Positions 250 through 49,264 of a stretch of 64,000 nt of DNA are shown piece by piece. This DNA comes from an uncultured Salinisphaerales bacterium. Its GTDB lineage: Bacteria > Pseudomonadota > Gammaproteobacteria > Nevskiales > CAJXLF01. Each line of letters opens with the position of its first letter. Positions within the stretch are counted from its first letter, which is position 1. The position numbers and the translations under genes were made by a program. Location: assembly GCA_913055805.1 (NCBI GenBank), contig CAJXLF010000013.1, positions 1 to 64,000 of the forward strand, read 5' to 3'. Under the pieces are notes generated by a model. The model ran no database searches, was not told the origin of the DNA, and saw only the letters and a program-made list of their open reading frames with translations.

Positions 250-993
250 TCAATTAATAATTTCTCCTTTGTTCTTGGCCAGCTTTTCGCGCCATTCGTT
301 AACATCCTCAGATGTTTGTCGTGTCCAGTCCGTTACTTCGCCAACGATTTTCAACGGCGCTTGCGAGCGATATGAGCGTGTTGGATTACCAGGAAACTTT
401 TTATCGGTGACATTCGGGTCATGCTCAAATGCCCCTGTTGGTTCAATAATATAAACACGTTCCCGCCTCTCACCCTCTGCCAATGCAGCGGCCAATCCTG
501 CCCCGTTAACCTGGGCTGTGAAATAAACATGATTCATCTTGAGGCCTGCTTTGTAATTTGAGTTTTCGCCTGCTGTCAGGAGGTCGCCAACCTGCAAATC
601 CGCTTTCGTCCCATGATAGAAGGGGCCTTTGTCAGAAGGCCGGCCTATATCGGAAGCCGCTAGTTCATAATTCTTTCTTGCTTCGTCAGGTTCGTTTATA
701 TCGTCGTAGCATTTTGCAATATTTGAATAGAGAGAAGGTAAGGCACTACTTACGGTGTCGTCATGGATTTTTAGCGCATACTTTAAAGCTGTCTCAAGCC
801 ACTCCAATTTCTCGGAAGTATTTTTTTGATATCGAGCCACATAATGAGCGGAAATGAATTTTTCAAAGTCATATGTTGCTTCATTCCAGGCCTGAAAAAA
901 GAGTTTGCTTGCTTCTTCAGGTAATTCTTTTTCTGCCATACCCATGCCCTGAAGGCAAAGCTGAACAATTTTGTTTTTCGGATTGAATTCCAT
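250..993 (-). CDS. TPR-like domain fused to rifampin ADP-ribosyltransferase (Arr) domain
   Basis: The 247-residue protein has two parts. Residues 1-118 are helical and TPR-like, with a 'SLYSNIAKCYDD' repeat near 87-99. Residues 122-247 match the Arr family, whose members transfer ADP-ribose from NAD+ to a rifamycin hydroxyl. Visible Arr hallmarks are GPFYHGTKADL (His128), HVYF (Tyr157), EPTGAFEHDPN (Asp192) and KFPGNPT. These correspond to the His/Tyr/Asp set described for Arr enzymes. Classical Arr is about 140-150 aa and lacks the N-terminal extension. The ATG follows a degenerate attC half-site and the stop precedes a direct repeat, so this is an eroded integron cassette. Activity on rifampin is inferred; the TPR part may redirect it to another target. 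Confidence 0.85.
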   Translation of the reverse strand: MEFNPKNKIVQLCLQGMGMAEKELPEEASKLFFQAWNEATYDFEKFISAHYVARYQKNTSEKLEWLETALKYALKIHDDTVSSALPSLYSNIAKCYDDINEPDEARKNYELAASDIGRPSDKGPFYHGTKADLQVGDLLTAGENSNYKAGLKMNHVYFTAQVNGAGLAAALAEGERRERVYIIEPTGAFEHDPNVTDKKFPGNPTRSYRSQAPLKIVGEVTDWTRQTSEDVNEWREKLAKNKGEIIN

Positions 994-1007
994 AATTATC
1001 TCGATAT

Positions 1008-1041
1008 CGCTCCTGACATTCGCTGCAACGACTAGTTATGC
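1008..1041 (-). other. Degenerate attC half-site
   Basis: On the minus strand, just after the SRPBCC stop, the sequence reads GCATAAC then TAGTCGTTGCAGCG. This resembles the 5' core and inner arm of an integron attC site. The complementary second arm and the closing GTTAGGC-like core are missing before the arr-like ATG, so the site looks truncated. It marks the junction between two cassettes. Confidence 0.45.
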
Positions 1042-1048
1042 GTATGCA

Positions 1049-1510
1049 TCACACTGGACAACCATCTGGAAACTGATCGGGCACTAGATTGAGTTCAATG
1101 CCATGCTCCAGCCAGGCCTTGAGGCCTGCAAGCACCATCGTATAACCGCCCTTCGAGTCAACAGCATGAGGCAGTACTTCGTCACAAGTGCCGGGAAATC
1201 CCCAGTTGGTAATAGTGACCAAAGTTGCTCCATCTCCACGTTCCTCAAAATGCCACTCAACGATTGTTGGATCATTTTCCCATTCGATGAGTATCCGGGC
1301 GTTTTCTTCCAGTTCCTTGACCGTGAGAGTGTCGCCGACACCGAACATCTCCCAGTCCCAACGCACTTGCGTGTTGCTATCGAGCCGGCCCGAGCTTTTA
1401 GTGAACCAGAACTTGGTAGTGATCTCTGGGTTAACGATGGCTTCAAATACTTCGGATACCGGCTTGCGAACCAGCATCTGCGCCGTAATTTTTACTGACT
1501 CTTCATGCAC
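1049..1510 (-). CDS. SRPBCC / AHSA1-type ligand-binding domain protein
   Basis: The 153-residue protein has the layout of the AHSA1 branch of the START-like SRPBCC fold. It starts with a strand containing 'RKPVSEVFEAIVNPE', then has 'TKFWFTKSSGRL', a central 'VRWDWEMFGVGD' hairpin and a C-terminal helix 'GGYTMVLAGLKAWLEHGIEL'. Such proteins bind small hydrophobic ligands or act as polyketide cyclase-like or stress proteins; the substrate here is unknown. No signal peptide is visible. The gene lies between eroded attC remnants, so it is probably cassette cargo. ORFs of this type are recurrent in environmental integrons, from general knowledge. The ATG at 1510 has no strong ribosome-binding site. 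Confidence 0.75.
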   Translation of the reverse strand: MHEESVKITAQMLVRKPVSEVFEAIVNPEITTKFWFTKSSGRLDSNTQVRWDWEMFGVGDTLTVKELEENARILIEWENDPTIVEWHFEERGDGATLVTITNWGFPGTCDEVLPHAVDSKGGYTMVLAGLKAWLEHGIELNLVPDQFPDGCPV

Positions 1511-1759
1511 GATTATCTACCTCCGGGATCGCGTGGCTGTTGGTCAATACGTAAAAGAAAATGGGGGCTGATTCTTGACTCCTTTTGTTGCACTATCTGT
1601 GTCCACGGCATGTCGTTCGTTTCATCGACATTGATTAATCGAATCCGGCAAATGCAAATCGACAATGTTGCTGTTCGGGGCTGGAGTTAAGTGGTGGTCA
1701 GTGAGATAAGGGATTCGGGTGGGCGTGCGTAAAGAGGCGGAATAGATTTTTCTCTAGTT
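1511..1759. other. Non-coding spacer inside the cassette region
   Basis: No credible gene and no complete attC site was found in these 250 bases. A cassette this long without an ORF could carry a promoter or be scar tissue left after loss of the attC arm at 1791-1843. Confidence 0.4.
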
Positions 1760-1782
1760 AATTTACTCCGACCCCTTTATTC
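1760..1782 (+). repeat. Direct repeat, copy 2 (TTACTCCGACCCC type)
   Basis: AATTTACTCCGACCCC followed by TTTATTC repeats the motif at 222-245 in the same orientation, with one base fewer in the C run. It sits immediately beside the truncated end of an attC site at 1791-1843. The two copies therefore delimit a segment of about 1.5 kb holding arr and the SRPBCC gene. Confidence 0.6.
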
Positions 1783-1790
1783 ACCGAAGT

Positions 1791-1843
1791 GGTGCTAGAT
1801 CAGCCGCCCGATTAGGGCGGTCCCGCTTGAGTGCCTTGTTAGC
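1791..1843 (-). other. Truncated attC site
   Basis: Read on the minus strand this starts with the core GCTAAC, which also supplies the TAA stop of the 193-aa cassette protein. It continues through AAGGCACTCAAGCGGGA and a CCGCCC/GGGCGG hairpin. The expected closing arm ending in a GTTAGGC-like core is absent; the sequence diverges after GGCGGCTGATC and runs into the direct repeat. The retained half closely resembles the intact site at 2424-2488. Confidence 0.65.
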
Positions 1844-2420
1844 TTCGGGCAGCAGAGCTTTCATGGGCCTTGATATATTTTGATATATGAAACGCAATCG
1901 TCTGAATGCAATTTCTGTAGAAGAAGAGTACTTCCAGGAAAGACTGGAAGACAAAATAGGAGAATGCTCCTGCGGTGGTAAGGGTTGTAAAGTCCTTCCT
2001 TTTTTTAGGGTTCGCATGCACGATTCCACCATAAAAAACTATTTGAAATAGCTCCTCGTTGGTCATTTCACCATTATCTTTAAATTGAACAAAGGCTTTT
2101 CCTTTTAGCTCCTGGTGCAATTTATCCCTAGCTTCCCGTATAGCTTTTCTTTGGGGAGAAAATCGATCTTCCCAAGTACCAGTGATATCGGCAATTTTTC
2201 TAATAGAAAATCCATCACGATCTTGAATTAGAAATCGTAGATTGAGGCAAAATGCGTCAAGCGCATCTTGGTTTAGGCCGTCATGTGCGAGCCAGTTACC
2301 CTGAACGATTTTTTCCATATCGGACTCGCCGCGACGGCTAGTTGCCCAATCCCAAAAAGCACTCGTTTCTAAGCGTTGCGCCTTCTCTACAAATAAGAAC
2401 AACTCTTCCGGTATTTTCAC
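1839..2420 (-). CDS. Cassette-borne protein of unknown function (193 aa)
   Basis: No family was recognised. The 193-residue protein is predicted soluble and largely helical, with charged segments around 'FSPQRKAIREARDKLHQELK' (about 90-110) and a hydrophobic aromatic stretch near the C-terminus (about 145-185). The initiator is GTG at 2420, only a few bases after the attC core at 2424-2430, so it has almost no leader and may be translated from an upstream cassette message. The TAA stop lies inside the next attC core. Both boundaries fit a simple integron cassette. A HEPN-like or other defence-related fold is possible from the helical layout, but no diagnostic motif is visible. Confidence 0.65.
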   Translation of the reverse strand: MKIPEELFLFVEKAQRLETSAFWDWATSRRGESDMEKIVQGNWLAHDGLNQDALDAFCLNLRFLIQDRDGFSIRKIADITGTWEDRFSPQRKAIREARDKLHQELKGKAFVQFKDNGEMTNEELFQIVFYGGIVHANPKKRKDFTTLTTAGAFSYFVFQSFLEVLFFYRNCIQTIAFHISKYIKAHESSAARS

Positions 2421-2423
2421 GGA

Positions 2424-2488
2424 GCTAACGCCTGAGCTAAGGGGCGGCCAGCGAAGCTGGGCGTCCCTGCTTGAGCGAATTGTTATGC
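2424..2488 (-). other. Integron attC recombination site (intact)
   Basis: On the minus strand the site opens with GCATAACAATTCGCTCAAGC. It passes through an imperfect stem, GGGACGCCCAGC / GCTGGCCGCCCC with a TTCG loop, and closes with CTCAGGCGTTAGC. The arrangement, about 65 bp length and near-palindromic outer arms match classical attC (59-base element) sites of aadA-type cassettes. The sense direction is the same as the cassette genes. The TAA stop of the upstream gene (2483-2485) is embedded in the opening core. This is the strongest evidence that the region is an integron array. Confidence 0.9.
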
Positions 2489-2866
2489 ACCATCTTTTAC
2501 CGCATTTATATGATTGAGTAACTCAGTAGGGGAAAGAACTCCAAGGGCTACTAGCATTATTAGCAGCCCACCAATAATTAGCGCCATAGCTGCCCAGACT
2601 GATTTGAACCGAATATGCAGTGATATGCCACCCCAAATACTTGAGCCAAACCCACATAGGAATATAAATATTCTCGTTTTGTCTTCGGCTTGATCGAAGA
2701 ATGTAAGTATCCCAGCACTTGTAAAAATACATACAACTGGGAGTATTAGCCAAACGCGGTTGAGCGGGGCACTAGGCTTTAAGAGATAGTCGGATAAATT
2801 TAGGCCATTATCTTCAAAGATATTTCTTACTTCTTCGTGCGTTCCTTCCAAAGGGCCGATTTTCAT
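2483..2866 (-). CDS. Small membrane protein, second gene of a two-gene cassette
   Basis: The 127-residue protein has a soluble N-terminal part of about 38 residues, beginning 'MKIGPLEGTHEEVRNIFEDNG', followed by three or four hydrophobic segments between about 38 and 115. It has no signal peptide and no recognised family. Its ATG overlaps the TGA of the upstream gene by four bases (2863-2866), so the two are translationally coupled. Its stop lies inside the attC core at 2482-2488. Coupling of a soluble protein with a small multi-pass membrane partner recalls toxin/antitoxin or abortive-infection pairs, but nothing in the sequence proves this. Confidence 0.7.
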   Translation of the reverse strand: MKIGPLEGTHEEVRNIFEDNGLNLSDYLLKPSAPLNRVWLILPVVCIFTSAGILTFFDQAEDKTRIFIFLCGFGSSIWGGISLHIRFKSVWAAMALIIGGLLIMLVALGVLSPTELLNHINAVKDGA

Positions 2867-3246
2867 TTTTCTGCCCTCTTGCTATTAGAAAGAAGTTTTT
2901 CTATGTCGCGTTGGGCAGCGTCGTCATTCCATTCGTTGGGGTTAGATTCTTTGATGTAGATGATTCGGTTGGGTTCAAGTAACGTACTTGTGCCACCAAA
3001 ACGCATACTGCCGAAATTCCCGCTAAAAGCTCTCTGATTTACTTTTGTTAGGGCGGTGCCGATTGATGGACTTAATGCTTGGTAGCGATCGTCATTTTCA
3101 AGACCGTCACCTAATTTAAATTCAAGTATTGCTCCGCCATCTTCTGAGGGAAAAATATCACAAGAAATACCAATCCCTGGACGAAGGTGACGAGCCAAAC
3201 GTCTGCGAAAATTGTTTATGTATTTTTGATATTTCTCATTCTTCAT
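2863..3246 (-). CDS. Cassette protein of unknown function, first gene of a two-gene cassette
   Basis: The 127-residue soluble protein has a basic N-terminus ('KYINNFRRRLARHLRPG') followed by a probable beta-rich body. It has no signal peptide, no transmembrane segment and no family I recognise. The ATG at 3246 lies 28 bases downstream (minus sense) of a GTTATGC integron core at 3274-3280. A purine-rich GAGAGGGAACG about 14 bases before the ATG could be a displaced ribosome-binding site. It overlaps the membrane-protein gene downstream by four bases, and together they fill one cassette ending at the attC at 2424-2488. Confidence 0.65.
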   Translation of the reverse strand: MKNEKYQKYINNFRRRLARHLRPGIGISCDIFPSEDGGAILEFKLGDGLENDDRYQALSPSIGTALTKVNQRAFSGNFGSMRFGGTSTLLEPNRIIYIKESNPNEWNDDAAQRDIEKLLSNSKRAEK

Positions 3247-3273
3247 GAAAGTCCACGTTCCCTCTCTAATGGT

Positions 3274-33077: not shown

Positions 33078-33419
33078 ATGAAGAGCATTTCGCGCTGGAC
33101 GCAGAAAGTCTTCGCAGCGGCGATGTTTTGCGGAATTCTCCAGGGTTCTGCCCTGGCCGCAGGTGATGCCGAGGCGGGCAAGGTCAAGGCCAGCACCTGT
33201 ATTGGATGCCATGGCATCGAGAACTACAGCAACGTTTATCCCAGCTACCGTGTGCCCATGCTCGGTGGTCAGCACCCTGAATACGTCGTGCAGGCGCTCA
33301 AGGCCTATAAGAGTGGTGAGCGTGCTCATCCCACGATGAAGGCCCAGGCAGCCCAGATGTCCGAGCAGGACATGGCCGATATCGCGGCCTATCTGACCAG
33401 TGCCCCGCAGGCCCAGTAA
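33078..33419 (+). CDS. Small c-type cytochrome
   Basis: The 113-residue protein has a signal peptide cleaved after about residue 28 ('LQGSALAAG') and one haem-binding motif, CIGCH, at 41-45. A later Met in 'HPTMKAQAAQMSEQD' is the likely sixth ligand. Size and layout suggest a periplasmic electron carrier of the c553/c5-like class. A second monohaem cytochrome gene follows after 18 bp, so the pair may have arisen by duplication or may work as one unit similar to dihaem c4. The terminal oxidase partner is not in the window. Confidence 0.9.
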   Translation: MKSISRWTQKVFAAAMFCGILQGSALAAGDAEAGKVKASTCIGCHGIENYSNVYPSYRVPMLGGQHPEYVVQALKAYKSGERAHPTMKAQAAQMSEQDMADIAAYLTSAPQAQ

Positions 33420-33437
33420 TCCGGACAGGTGATTGAG

Positions 33438-33785
33438 ATGATGAAGCAACTAGTGTTACTGGCCGGCCTGCTGGCCGCCATGAGCGGTTCCGCTTTCGCC
33501 AGCGAACAGGCGGCGCCCGAGCAGGGCAAGACAGTGGAAGAACTCACGGCTGCCTGTACTGCCTGCCATGGCCCCACCGGCGTCAGCCCCACCACGGCAT
33601 TTCCGATTATTGCCGGTCAGCACAAGACCTATATTGAGAAGGCCCTGCAGGATTACCGCTCCGGCGCCCGCAAGAATGCAGTGATGGCCGGCCAGGTGGC
33701 CAACCTGTCGGACAGCGATATCGAGAAGCTGGCTGCCTTCTATTCGAAGCAGGAGAGTCCGCTGTATACGCCGTCGGGCGACTGA
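33438..33785 (+). CDS. Small c-type cytochrome, second of the pair
   Basis: Read from 33438 the protein is 115 residues, with a signal peptide ('LLAGLLAAMSGSAFAS') and the haem motif CTACH at 40-44. 'IAGQHKTYIEKALQDYRSGA' parallels 'LGGQHPEYVVQALKAYKSGE' in the upstream gene, showing the two are paralogues. 'NAVMAGQVANLSD' holds a candidate Met ligand. An in-frame GTG at 33429 is an alternative start. A strong terminator follows at 33810. Confidence 0.9.
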   Translation: MMKQLVLLAGLLAAMSGSAFASEQAAPEQGKTVEELTAACTACHGPTGVSPTTAFPIIAGQHKTYIEKALQDYRSGARKNAVMAGQVANLSDSDIEKLAAFYSKQESPLYTPSGD

Positions 33786-33901: not shown

Positions 33902-34411
33902 ATGCCGGAAATCCGTATCGAAGAGGGTGACATCACCCGGCTTGACGTCGATGCCATCGTCAATGCCGCCAACTCCACGCTGCTGGGTGGCGGGGGTGTC
34001 GATGGCGCCATTCATCGTGCGGCCGGCCCACAGCTGAAAGCGCATTGCGCCGGTCTGGGCGGCTGTCCCACGGGCGAAGCGCGTATCACGCCGGGATTCA
34101 ATCTGCCAGCCCGCTATGTCATTCACACTGTGGGTCCGGTGTGGCGCGGCGGCAACGATAATGAGCCGGACCTGCTGGAAAGTTGCTACCGGCAAAGCCT
34201 GGGCCTGGCCGCCGAGCATGATTGCCGCAGCGTGGCCTTTCCTGCCATTTCCTGTGGCGTATACGGTTATCCACTGGAGCAGGCGGCCGCTGTTGCCGTT
34301 TCTACCGTACAGCACTTTCTGCAAAGCCATGAGCAGCCGGCGACGGTGTTGCTGTGCTGCTTCGGTGATGCTGTCGCTTCAGCCTACCGGCAGGCGCTGG
34401 AGGCTGGCTAA
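33902..34411 (+). CDS. ymdB: Macro-domain O-acetyl-ADP-ribose deacetylase
   Basis: The 169-residue protein is a single MacroD-type macro domain. It binds ADP-ribose and removes O-acetyl or ADP-ribosyl groups. Visible motifs are '[20 protein letters not shown]' (substrate loop with Asn and Asp), '[20 protein letters not shown]' and '[18 protein letters not shown]'. The organism also carries an Arr ADP-ribosyltransferase at 250-993, but the two are 33 kb apart and no link is implied. It starts at 33902 after a terminator and appears to be monocistronic. Confidence 0.93.
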
Positions 34412-34737
34412 CCTTCTCCTGTTTATTGCGCTAGGCTGCCTATTGGGTCCTGCCTGTGAAGAGATCAATGGCGCTGTCGGTTATGTCCAATATCGACCAA
34501 TACAGTGAATTGGCGCCGGATTGCGCGGTAACTGGTAGGTCGCTGCATCCATTGGGCGGCTGCATGCGTATATAACCCTGTCAGCCATATCCTGGCGTGC
34601 AAGCAATTTCAATGCTGCCGGGTCTGTTGGTAGGCAAGCTGAACTTTCAGCTGAGTCCCCGGTCGCACGGGGAGATGTATTGACTGCTTATGCAGTTCTT
34701 ATGGGCGCAAGCCCGTGACTTCTCAAGGAGATATGTA
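34412..34737 (+). promoter_or_regulatory. Hairpin-rich leader upstream of the bufferin-like operon
   Basis: The 326-bp gap holds no gene. In its second half lie four short inverted repeats: AGCTGA-ACTT-TCAGCT (34637-34652), CCCCG-GTCGCA-CGGGG (34657-34672), ACTGC-TTAT-GCAGT (34683-34696) and GGGC-GCAA-GCCC (34703-34714). A good ribosome-binding site, AAGGAG, ends eight bases before the ATG at 34738. The palindromes may be operator sites or a structured 5' leader. I saw no confident sigma-70 promoter. Confidence 0.5.
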
Positions 34738-35019
34738 ATGAAGGATGTAAAGAAGAACGCTGTCATTCTGGCGGGCGCTGCTTTTGCAACGTCAATGGCG
34801 CTGTCCATGGCGGCACAGGCCAGTGAAAACCCGTTCCAGGTGAACCAGCTGTCTGCCGGATATCAGCTTGCTGACAATGCCGAGGGCAAGTGTGGCGAAG
34901 GCAAGTGCGGTGAAGACAAGAAGGATGGTGAAGGCAAGTGTGGTGAAGGCAAGTGCGGCGAGGGCAAGAAGGACGGCGAAGGTAAATGCGGCGAAGGCAA
35001 GTGCGGCGAGAACAAGTAA
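34738..35019 (+). CDS. hvfA: Bufferin/HvfA-type precursor peptide with EGKCG repeats
   Basis: The 93-residue precursor has an unusually long Sec signal peptide (about 1-28, 'ATSMALSMAAQAS' at the cut), a short spacer and a core with six cysteines at 52, 57, 68, 73, 84 and 89. Each Cys is in an EGKCGE context, and they form three pairs in 16-residue units separated by KKDG. Proteins of this kind (HvfA/bufferin-2) are ribosomally made peptides. From published work, the cysteines of this family are oxidised by an MNIO enzyme to copper-binding heterocycles and the product is exported to the periplasm. The next two genes encode exactly those maturation partners. The ATG follows AAGGAG; the frame runs 48 bases further upstream without a better start. 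Confidence 0.9.
   Translation: MKDVKKNAVILAGAAFATSMALSMAAQASENPFQVNQLSAGYQLADNAEGKCGEGKCGEDKKDGEGKCGEGKCGEGKKDGEGKCGEGKCGENK
34882..35016 (+). repeat. In-frame 48-bp tandem repeat encoding the EGKCG core
   Basis: Nearly three tandem 48-bp units encode EGKCGEGKCGE plus a KKDG linker. Codons for the repeated residues differ slightly between units (GGCAAG, GGTAAA), so the array is not freshly duplicated. Unit number sets the number of modifiable cysteines, here two per unit. Confidence 0.85.
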
Positions 35020-35038
35020 GCTCGTCTGACGCGTCTTC

Positions 35039-35887
35039 ATGAAACCGTATCCGGTACAAGGTGCCGGACTTGGTCTGCGGCGGGCCCTGATGGGCCCGCT
35101 GGCAGATTACACACCCGGGCAGATCGATTTTCTGGAGGTGGCGCCGGAAAACTGGATCGATATGGGCGGCGCCCGCGGCCGCCAGTTTCGCGCCTTTACC
35201 GAACGTTACCCTTTTGTCACTCACGGTCTGTCCCTGTCGCTGGGCGGGCCGGCGCCACTGGACGAAGCCTTTCTGGGAAAGGTGAAAACTTTCCTGGATG
35301 AACACAATGTCCGCTATTACACCGAACACCTGAGTTATTGTGGCGATGACGGTCATCTCTACGACCTCATGCCCATCCCCTTTACCGCTGAAGCCGTCAG
35401 CTATGTAGCGTCCCGTATTCGGCGTAGTCAGGAAATCCTTGAGCGTCGTATCGCCGTCGAGAATGTTTCCTACTATGCCGCCCCCGGTGCCGAAATGACG
35501 GAGCTGGAATTCCTGCTGGCGGTGCTGGAAGAAGCCGACTGCGATCTGCTGCTGGACGTGAACAATATCGTCGTCAACAGCATCAATCATCGCTATGACG
35601 CCGAAGCATTCCTCAAAGCGCTCCCTGCGGAGCGTATTGCCTACGCGCATATTGCCGGGCACTACAAGGAAGCCGAAGACCTGCGTGTAGACACGCATGG
35701 CAGTGATGTCAGCGAGCAGGTCTGGAACCTGCTGGACACCGCCTACCGGCACTTCGGTGTGTTCCCGACTTTGCTGGAGCGCGACTTCAATATCCCGCCG
35801 CTGGATGAGCTGTTGGGTGAAGTGGATCGCATAACCGCGCTGCAGGCCAAATGGTCTGCGCCCGTAAAAGAGACGGCACATGCCTGA
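35039..35887 (+). CDS. hvfB: MNIO (DUF692) peptide-modifying enzyme, HvfB/BufB type
   Basis: The 282-residue protein is a DUF692 TIM barrel of the multinuclear non-haem iron oxidase (MNIO) family, which also includes MbnB. It would oxidise the cysteines of the EGKCG peptide encoded 20 bp upstream. Likely metal ligands seen in order are His62 ('[10 protein letters not shown]'), Glu96-His97 ('YTEHLSYCG'), Glu141 ('[10 protein letters not shown]'), Asp173 ('[11 protein letters not shown]'), His204/His208 ('AHIAGH'), Asp218-His220 ('[12 protein letters not shown]') and Glu247 ('LLERDFNIP'). The full set looks intact. Its stop overlaps the partner gene start by eight bases. Confidence 0.93.
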
Positions 35888-36644
35888 CACACGGCCGGTC
35901 TTTCAACAGCTTCAGTACGGCTTTGCCGCGCATCTGCGTGATCCGGACAAGCATCCGGCGCCGCCGGATATCGAAGACCGGCGCATGCAGATCTATCGCG
36001 ATCTTTTCTACAAGAATATTCAGAACTTTATCGCCACGGCTTTTCCGGTAGTGCGCACGCTGTATACAGATGATGACTGGCATGCCCTGGTGCGGGATTT
36101 TTATGCCCGCCACATATCCCATAGTCCGCAGTTCTATCAGATCGCGGAAGAATTCCTGGCCTATCTGCAGGATGAGCATCAGCCGCGTGACTGTGATCCG
36201 CCGTTTCTGCAGGAACTGGCACATTACGAATGGGCGGAAATGATCCTCGCCATTGATCCCGTTGAAGTCAGTCTTGATGCGGTTGATACCGAGGCGGATT
36301 TGCTGGCCGGCGTGCCGGTGCTTAATCCCTGTTTGCAGAATCTGGCCTACAGTTATCCCGTGCATCGCATATCCGCGGATTACCGGCCGGATCGTGCCGA
36401 CCAGCAGCCGGCATTTCTGGTGGTATACCGCAAGCCGGATGACGTGGTGGCGTTTCTGGAGGTGAATGCCATCACGGCCCGGCTGATACAGCGCTTGCAA
36501 GAGCAGCCGGAACTCAGCGGGGAGGCGCAGCTGCTGGCGTTGGCGGATGAAGCCGGGCTGGTGGCCGGGACTGTGCTCACATTCGGCGCCCGGACGCTGG
36601 AGGATTTGCGCGCCCGAGCCGTGGTGCTGGGCGTGCACAAGTAG
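35880..36644 (+). CDS. hvfC: DUF2063 partner protein, HvfC/BufC type
   Basis: The 254-residue protein matches the DUF2063 family (putative DNA-binding domain in older annotation), now seen as the peptide-recognition partner of MNIO enzymes. N-terminal segment '[20 protein letters not shown]' and '[23 protein letters not shown]' are typical, as is '[20 protein letters not shown]'. The C-terminal domain holds '[18 protein letters not shown]'. It overlaps hvfB by eight bases, so the two are coupled. The DoxX-type membrane protein that often completes such operons is absent; rmuC follows after 32 bp. Confidence 0.92.
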
Positions 36645-36676
36645 CATCCGCCGTTGCCTGCCCGCACAATACGTGC

Positions 36677-47246: not shown

Positions 47247-48554
47247 TCAGTGCAGGACCAGCCTGACTGCAGCGCCGCCCAGTTTGCGCGAGGCGTCGAG
47301 AACGATTTCTCCACCCAGGGAGCTGACGATGTCCGCGACCAGCGCCAGGCCAATGCCCTGGCCTTCCTTGCGGGTGTCGGCGCGAATGCCGCGGTCCAAC
47401 AGCTTTATGGCATCAGCGGGAAAACCCGGGCCATCGTCTTCGACAAGAATGCCAATGCTGTTCTGTGTCAGCGTGGCGGTGACCGAGACCGAACGCTTGC
47501 ACCATTTACAGGCGTTATCGAGCAGGTTGCCCATGATTTCCAAAAGGTCCCCGCGTTCTATCGCCAGTTGCAGGTCGTCGGGAATATTAACGCTGAAAGT
47601 AATCTGTTTGTCGGCATAGACCTTGCCCAGGGCCGCCAGCGTCTGATCGACCAGCGGCCGCAGGGTGGTGCTCTGACCGAAGGTTTTGCCACCGCCTGCC
47701 AGGGCCCGTTTAAGGTGGTAGTCGATCTGCTGCTGCATTTGCTGAATGGGTGCGTTGCAGGCCGGCTGCTCGCCGACTTCAGCCCGTAGCGCTGCCAGCG
47801 GAGTTTTCAGGCTGTGGGCGAGGTCGTCCAGCGCGAGGCGGTAGCGGGACTGGCGCAGGCGCTCGTTGCCGATCAGCGAATTCAGGGCATTACCCAGCGG
47901 CGTAAGCTCGTCGGGATAGTGGCCAATGATGTGATCCTGACGGCCGGATTGCAGCATTCTGACTTCGGCCGTAAGGCGCCGTACCGGCCCGAGCCCCCAA
48001 TAGAGAATCACCAGCAGAATGCCAAGCAGCAAAACGGCCGCCGTACCGAGCCAGAGCCACAGGCTGCGCCGGAAGCGGCTGCGCTGCGCCAGGAAGGTGG
48101 CGGAGTCCTCCACCACTATGACTGTAAAACGGCGTTCGCCTTTCTCCAGTCCCCAGCTGACACCCAGCGACAGGCTGAAATAAGGGTAGTCCGGCGTAGG
48201 TGAATTCAAACGCCAGGCGCCTACCGGCAGGGCAACGGGTACGGGCGGGTCGCGCAGCAGTGAGGTTGTGCGCCACAGGATGTTGCCGTCGGTTTCGGCC
48301 AGCATGGCGCCCAGGCCGCTTTCGAACTGGGCAAAACGGGGGTCGGGCAGGTTGCCCTCGATGATATCGATGTCGCCGCCGGGACTGACTTCAATGATGC
48401 TGAGTACGCCATACACCAGTCCCTGCAGGCGGTCCCGCACGGCCTGTTCGGCGCGCACATGGTCGGCGCGCTCCAGCGCCAGTGCCGTGATCAGTACAAA
48501 CAGCAGCAGCGCCACGCCGGCCGCAACCAGCAGGCGGCCGCGAAGCGAATTCAC
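47247..48554 (-). CDS. PhoQ-like sensor histidine kinase
   Basis: The 435-residue membrane kinase has an N-terminal helix (about 6-27), a periplasmic sensor loop, a second helix ('WLWLGTAAVLLLGILLVILY', about 168-187), HAMP-like region, and the dimerisation box 'LDDLAHSLKTPLAALRAEVG' with the phospho-His. The ATP domain carries 'GNLLDNACKW', 'VEDDGPGFP' and 'GQGIGLALVADI'. The H-box DLAHSLKTPLA is typical of PhoQ-like kinases. The signal may be divalent cations or envelope stress, but the sensor loop is too divergent to say. It overlaps the response-regulator gene by four bases. Confidence 0.92.
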   Translation of the reverse strand: MNSLRGRLLVAAGVALLLFVLITALALERADHVRAEQAVRDRLQGLVYGVLSIIEVSPGGDIDIIEGNLPDPRFAQFESGLGAMLAETDGNILWRTTSLLRDPPVPVALPVGAWRLNSPTPDYPYFSLSLGVSWGLEKGERRFTVIVVEDSATFLAQRSRFRRSLWLWLGTAAVLLLGILLVILYWGLGPVRRLTAEVRMLQSGRQDHIIGHYPDELTPLGNALNSLIGNERLRQSRYRLALDDLAHSLKTPLAALRAEVGEQPACNAPIQQMQQQIDYHLKRALAGGGKTFGQSTTLRPLVDQTLAALGKVYADKQITFSVNIPDDLQLAIERGDLLEIMGNLLDNACKWCKRSVSVTATLTQNSIGILVEDDGPGFPADAIKLLDRGIRADTRKEGQGIGLALVADIVSSLGGEIVLDASRKLGGAAVRLVLH

Positions 48555-49264
48555 CCGTGATGTTCCTCGGCGGTGCCGGCTTCTGCCGCGCGTCGTTCCA
48601 GCCGCAGGCGATAGCCCTGACCACGTAATGTTTCAATCGGATCCAGCGCGCCATCCGGGTCGAGTTTGTTGCGCAGACGGCGCACGAAGACCTCGATCAC
48701 GTTGCTGTCGCGATCCTCGTCCTCGGCATAGATATGCTCGGTCAGCACGGTCTTGGACATGACTTCGCCCGCATGCAGCATCAGGCATTCCAGCAGGCGG
48801 TACTCATAGGCGGTGAGCTTGATCGCCTCACCACCTACGGTGACATGCTGGCGGCCGGTATCCATTTCAACCGGGCCGCAGGCCAGCAGTGACTGGCTCC
48901 AGCCGCCCTTGCGGCGCAGCAGGGCGCGCATGCGCGCCAGCAATTCCTCGGTATGAAAGGGTTTGGTCAGGTAATCATCGGCGCCGGCTTCAAGGCCTTC
49001 CACCTTGTCTTGCCAGCGGTCGCGTGCGGTGAGAATCAGTACCGGATAATCGCGGCCGTTTTCGCGCAGCTTGCGAATCAGATCCATGCCGGACAGCCCT
49101 GGCAGGCCCAGGTCAATGATGGCCAGGTCCAGGGGGTATTCAGTCGCCGCATACAGCCCTTCTTCGCCGTCCGGCGCCTGGTCCACGGCAAAGCCCTCGT
49201 CACCCAGCCGTTTTGCGATTTGCTCACGCAACTGGTCGTGGTCTTCGACAATCAATACACGCAC
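48551..49264 (-). CDS. PhoP-like response regulator (OmpR family)
   Basis: The 237-residue regulator has a receiver domain, 'RVLIVEDHDQLREQIAKRLG', the phosphorylation site Asp in 'LAIIDLGLPGLSGMDLIRKL', Thr in 'LILTARD' and Lys in 'DYLTKPF'. A winged-helix DNA-binding domain follows with 'LTAYEYRLLECLMLHAGEVM' and 'DRDSNVIEVFVRRLRNKLD'. It starts with GTG at 49264, ten bases after the PepSY gene. It is encoded with the kinase at 47247 and is its probable partner. Confidence 0.93.
   Translation of the reverse strand: MRVLIVEDHDQLREQIAKRLGDEGFAVDQAPDGEEGLYAATEYPLDLAIIDLGLPGLSGMDLIRKLRENGRDYPVLILTARDRWQDKVEGLEAGADDYLTKPFHTEELLARMRALLRRKGGWSQSLLACGPVEMDTGRQHVTVGGEAIKLTAYEYRLLECLMLHAGEVMSKTVLTEHIYAEDEDRDSNVIEVFVRRLRNKLDPDGALDPIETLRGQGYRLRLERRAAEAGTAEEHHG

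Follow-up and report, generated by a model that had tools for sequence, protein, structure and literature searches.

Gene Organization and the Precursor Peptide

The DNA considered here (the window) is a stretch of 64,000 nucleotides from an uncultured Salinisphaerales bacterium that carries a tight plus-strand operon of three genes, hvfA, hvfB, and hvfC, downstream of a promoter-like site. The genes, residues, repeat, leader, and promoter motif described here are read directly from the DNA; the features are as follows.

34641 to 34667, plus strand: ECF/sigma-E-type promoter-like site, GAACTTT-N-GGTCGCA, found with a motif from the upstream regions of hvfA relatives
34725 to 34730, plus strand: ribosome-binding site AAGGAG before hvfA, from direct reading of the sequence
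34738 to 35019, plus strand: hvfA, secreted precursor of 93 aa with six EGKCG cysteines in three pairs (NF050137 and NF050188 scores, sequence)
34828 to 34872, plus strand: conserved HvfA leader motif NPFQVNQLSAGYQLA, probably the region recognized by HvfC (relatives' leaders)
34882 to 35016, plus strand: HvfA core, putatively modified; three units (16, 16, and 13 residues) that all start EGKCGEGKCG (DNA unit comparison, spacing survey)
35039 to 35887, plus strand: hvfB, MNIO (DUF692/PF05114) maturase of 282 aa (PF05114, 344 bits)
35880 to 36644, plus strand: hvfC, partner protein of 254 aa with DUF2063 and an RRE-type C-terminal domain (PF09836, PF22106)

The AAGGAG sequence lies 7 nt 5' of the hvfA ATG. 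The gap between hvfA and hvfB measures 19 bp, rather than the 20 bp given in the original prediction; the 8 bp overlap of hvfB by hvfC is as predicted, with hvfC starting at 35880, inside hvfB, which ends at 35887, and running to 36644. Antisense ORFs across the operon at 34763-35890 and 35787-36647 look spurious. Upstream of the hvf operon lie a macrodomain gene (33902-34411) and, 5' of that, two adjoining small cytochrome c genes (33078-33785). Elsewhere in the window, a run of ORFs at 250-3250 has a third-position GC of 0.35-0.54, compared with about 0.75 in the remainder, and is possibly recently acquired DNA; a sensor kinase/response regulator pair at 47247-49264 is closest to PhoQ/PhoP, scoring under the equivalog cut-offs.

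HvfA reads, in order, MKDVKKNAVILAGAAFATSMALSMAAQAS-ENPFQVNQLSAGYQLADNA-EGKCGEGKCGEDKKDG-EGKCGEGKCGEGKKDG-EGKCGEGKCGENK, with an N-terminus that was judged by eye to be a Sec-type signal peptide. The leader has the pattern NPF-x4-L-xx-GY-x-L-A, of which GY is conserved in 54 and NPF or NPY in 50 of 60 relatives, no more than 32 residues before the first KCG. The six EGKCG cysteines are spaced 5, 11, 5, 11, 5; of the three units in the core, the first two have the full 16 residues and the last is shortened to 13 (EGKCGEGKCGENK), so the earlier description of a secreted 93-residue peptide with this spacing stands, but that of three 16-residue units does not. At the DNA level the units differ pairwise by 7-9 of 42-48 nt, and six of the seven differences between units 1 and 2 (7/48 nt) are synonymous, which suggests selection on the peptide. 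These mostly synonymous differences, together with a score of 61.1 bits against the NCBIfam model for the KCGExKCG repeat domain (NF050137, cut-off 19.5), argue that the repeat is not a product of chance. The score against the strict equivalog model NF050188 is 58.9 bits, under its cut-off of 95, and HvfA is therefore placed in the HvfA family as a member that is not the same equivalog.

Maturation Proteins and Family Assignment

The HvfB-family model NF003818 gives HvfB 439.5 bits (cut-off 360). The protein aligns with the solved MNIO structure of H. somni (PDB 3bww) at an E-value of 4e-76 and departs at none of the 99 columns with 97% or more conservation among 80 relatives; the MNIO gene is thus intact, as had been predicted, and is the single MNIO gene in the whole genome. 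With 259.5 bits against the BufB model (cut-off 310), HvfB falls outside the Buf1/Buf2 bufferins. HvfC likewise retains 34 of 34 such columns and scores 295 bits against NF050145 (cut-off 142); it is a PME1 partner whose DUF2063 and RRE-type domains adjoin the MNIO, which bears out the predicted DUF2063 gene. In the FonB protein of Fontimonas thermophila, Arg15/Arg16, Asp249, and Phe250 mark an MNIO specific for Lys-Cys sites (PMC12668002); R14/R15, D249, and F250 of HvfB match these residues, the correspondence of numbering being our own reading. The original assignment to the HvfABC family is upheld by HvfB and HvfC scores over curated cut-offs, by the HvfA repeat domain, and by the EGKCG-specificity residues in HvfB. 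We put at roughly 93% the probability that hvfABC is a RiPP operon of the ordinary EGKCG/oxazolin (captophorin) type.

The Paired Core Among Known EGKCG Systems

Several characterized systems bear on how the locus is to be read. Haemophilus influenzae HvfABC with HvfX (oxazolin, a 5-thiooxazole RiPP) shares the signal peptide, the three EGKCGEGKCG pairs with six cysteines, the MNIO HvfB, and the DUF2063/RRE HvfC; in that precursor, which has three AEGKCGEGKCG motifs, all six cysteines are modified (oxidized) (PMC13419390). It differs in its leader and linkers and in having hvfX within the operon. MmrABC of Microbulbifer sp. VAAF005 (bulbicupramide) also consists of three genes, with lysine-containing linkers and three two-cysteine cassettes in MmrA, all six cysteines of which are modified (PMC12538549); 34 residues separate the first from the sixth cysteine in MmrA, whereas the spacings in HvfA add up to 37. 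Fontimonas thermophila FonABC (fontiphorin, a captophorin) is a minimal A-B-C cluster from the same order, Nevskiales, with the same MNIO specificity residues, but FonA has seven modified cysteines (PMC12668002). The Buf_EGKCG/oxazolin family of about 2000 proteins has repeats carrying two EGKCG each, MNIO and DUF2063 genes, and a variable DoxX (PMC12452194). The Buf1/Buf2 bufferins (DUF2282; 6 and 12 cysteines) are matured by MNIO and DUF2063 proteins and bind copper in the periplasm, as HvfA would by analogy, although their precursors belong to other families.

The original prediction saw the compact paired repeat as distinctive and suggested a copper stoichiometry of its own, and the repeat unit does have 16 residues here as against the 17 given for the family (PMC12452194). 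Such a variant is extremely improbable. Three pairs with six cysteines are already the architecture of the H. influenzae prototype and of MmrA, the NCBIfam repeat model is itself built on the EGKCG pair, and EGKCG products are suspected to take up copper stochastically (PMC12668002). At least one cysteine pair at spacing 5 is present in 77 of 80 surveyed precursors (57 of the 60 nearest and all 20 from the same order), the gaps between pairs range from 9 to more than 20, and 11 is the commonest spacing after 5. Three clean pairs make up nine of the 80, and one precursor (L061) has exactly the 5-11-5-11-5 spacing, making it a twin of HvfA. The six-cysteine, three-pair core is the HvfA prototype architecture, and nothing supports a special copper stoichiometry. 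The records of L061 and of L085 are metagenome-assembled genomes labeled 'Halobacteria archaeon' and 'Klebsiella pneumoniae'; their hvf genes nest among gammaproteobacterial MAGs, and the bins are probably misnamed or contaminated.

Within the Nevskiales, the EGKCG repeat is found in 29 of 85 genomes. Relatives that carry names, together with genomes of the same order, put the window in the Gammaproteobacteria, probably close to the Nevskiales: genomes of that order cluster with Stenotrophobium rhamnosiphilum (Nevskiales) and, in the HvfX tree, with a Salinisphaeraceae record; Fontimonas, the source of fontiphorin, belongs to the same order.

An HvfX Gene Apart from the Operon

No DoxX gene is found in the neighborhood of hvfABC, and the operon is thus not of the form with a linked hvfX. 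The claim that DoxX is missing holds for this neighborhood but not for the genome: the genome-wide search proposed with the original prediction, for a DoxX or copper-export gene, finds three DoxX genes, of which one truly belongs to the HvfX family, and a Cu-ATPase gene. The HvfX-family gene, observed directly and full-length at C10:98447-99034 (L146:8448-9035), scores 217.8 bits (cut-off 80) and is flanked by a pfkB-like carbohydrate-kinase-like gene and a sensor-kinase-like gene. Its product keeps 40 of 43 conserved columns and lies on a long branch (0.97) in the HvfX tree; this branch and the departures at the other three columns make its link with hvfABC uncertain. Because the genome holds a single MNIO, action of HvfX in trans on hvfABC is the natural guess, and the protein, whose role in the pathway is putative, may act in this way.

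Absence of DoxX from the operon, which had been presented as a distinctive trait, is shared with described clusters and with some of the nearest relatives. The fon cluster consists of A, B, and C genes only (PMC12668002), and mmr is described as mmrA-C, with no DoxX (PMC12538549). Among the 77 nearest loci with enough flanking sequence to judge, DoxX is directly 3' of hvfC in 53, nearby in five, and absent in 19. In the sampled loci of the same order, hvfX is usually immediately 5' of hvfA; the operons of G008, G016, G024, and G049 in this order have no linked hvfX. An HvfX over the cut-off is encoded elsewhere in nine of the 19 genomes that have no linked DoxX; five of these nine unlinked proteins form one clade, and two of the nine genes stand behind a second EGKCG precursor gene. 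Loss of hvfX or its separation from the operon has occurred more than once. At L148:1420-2526 and L156:1483-2616 the second precursor gene is followed by the unlinked hvfX, as a split hvfA'-hvfX pair, and the hvfABC operons are DoxX-less.

The lack of a linked hvfX, in an order whose sampled genomes usually have it directly before hvfA, could mark the operon as a relic, decayed or not expressed, whose peptide has gone unmodified since HvfX left. This is very unlikely given that every conserved column of HvfB and HvfC is intact, that units 1 and 2 of HvfA differ almost only at synonymous sites, and that a full-length HvfX is encoded elsewhere in the genome; moreover, peptide modification by FonBC and by MmrBC proceeds without DoxX (PMC12668002, PMC12538549).

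Control of Transcription

Sigma-E-type ECF promoters have the elements GGAACTT and GTC..A. Counting words in 54 upstream regions of hvfA relatives, with no prior model, yielded a bipartite motif, approximately GAAACTTT-N13/14-GTCGTA, and the form AACTT-N14..16-GTC occurs in 31 of the 54 regions. Read in reverse, 2 of the 54 regions contain it, and among 1820 control windows 4 do. The site in the window, GAACTTTCAGCTGAGTCCCCGGTCGCA (34641-34667), scores 13.6, at the low end of the training range of 10.2-27.8, a score reached by 8 of 2000 shuffles; GAACTT-N13..15-GGTCNNA has a single occurrence in the 3.38 Mb genome, at hvfA. The resemblance of the motif to a sigma-E-type ECF promoter suggests control by an envelope-stress sigma factor. 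Homologous clusters offer precedents: in H. influenzae, the response of the doxX-DUF692-DUF2063 cluster to HOCl requires the ECF factor RpoE2, and a related cluster of Neisseria meningitidis reportedly belongs to the SigE regulon (PMC7907618). Several ECF genes are present in the genome of the window, one of them RpoE-like by eye and located on contig C2 beside an RseA-like gene. A search of 16 relatives for a regulon of the motif gave, in most genomes, the hvfA site and a few unrelated matches, about as frequent as in controls, and pointed to neither a wider regulon nor a cognate sigma gene.

Copper-responsive transcription, which the original prediction expected, is doubtful, because the promoter looks like an ECF/sigma-E one and MmrA-C went undetected in cells under copper stress; the protection seen in that system was weak (PMC12538549). 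CueR-like and Fur-like boxes are absent upstream of hvfA in the window and in the 54 relatives, a copper two-component-type box occurs in only two of the 54, and no gene in the genome exceeds the CueR cut-off (best 128, cut-off 147.4). With an ECF-type motif here and ECF control of homologous clusters, the DNA lends no support to the copper-responsive expectation. Scans for a sigma-70 promoter and terminator returned nothing, an Rfam search returned nothing near the operon, and no plasmid origin gave a convincing match.

The same motif, the RpoE2-dependent HOCl induction, and the behavior of MmrA-C under copper would fit a modified HvfA that serves mainly against oxidative or hypochlorite/envelope stress, rather than in copper handling. 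We regard this as rather unlikely, since EGKCG products bind copper and related clusters are often induced by a surplus of metal (PMC12668002); the one role does not preclude the other.

Proposed Pathway and Significance

In the proposed pathway for this EGKCG operon, whose chemistry, export, and copper binding follow by analogy from characterized relatives, hvfABC would probably be transcribed from the ECF/sigma-E-type promoter. The HvfA leader would be bound by HvfC, and the HvfBC complex, using an Fe(II)/Fe(III) center and O2, would turn all six Lys-Cys sites, two in each of the three EGKCGEGKCG pairs, into 5-thiooxazoles, the structure now assigned to a heterocycle first called an oxazolone/thioamide. 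HvfA would be exported by the Sec pathway and its signal then removed; in the periplasm its thiolates would bind Cu(I), as the EGKCG products of relatives bind copper (PMC12668002, PMC12538549). The modified peptide would most likely act as a Cu(I) sink under envelope or metal stress, and the DoxX-family HvfX encoded elsewhere in the genome may contribute in trans.

As a further member of the known EGKCG/oxazolin (captophorin) class, with unremarkable repeat and gene content, the operon enlarges an already characterized class by one genome. The repeated movement of hvfX from the operon without its loss provides natural cases for asking what HvfX does, and from the motif comes a claim that can be tested, namely that an ECF/sigma-E-type promoter is present at many EGKCG operons. 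A broader proposal, which we hold tentatively and consider somewhat unlikely as a whole, is that HvfX of this lineage split off yet still serves hvfABC in trans, and that a sigma-E/RpoE-like envelope-stress factor drives hvfABC through a promoter common to many gammaproteobacterial EGKCG operons; if this is true, EGKCG peptides would serve as copper sinks in envelope stress and would not be induced by copper.
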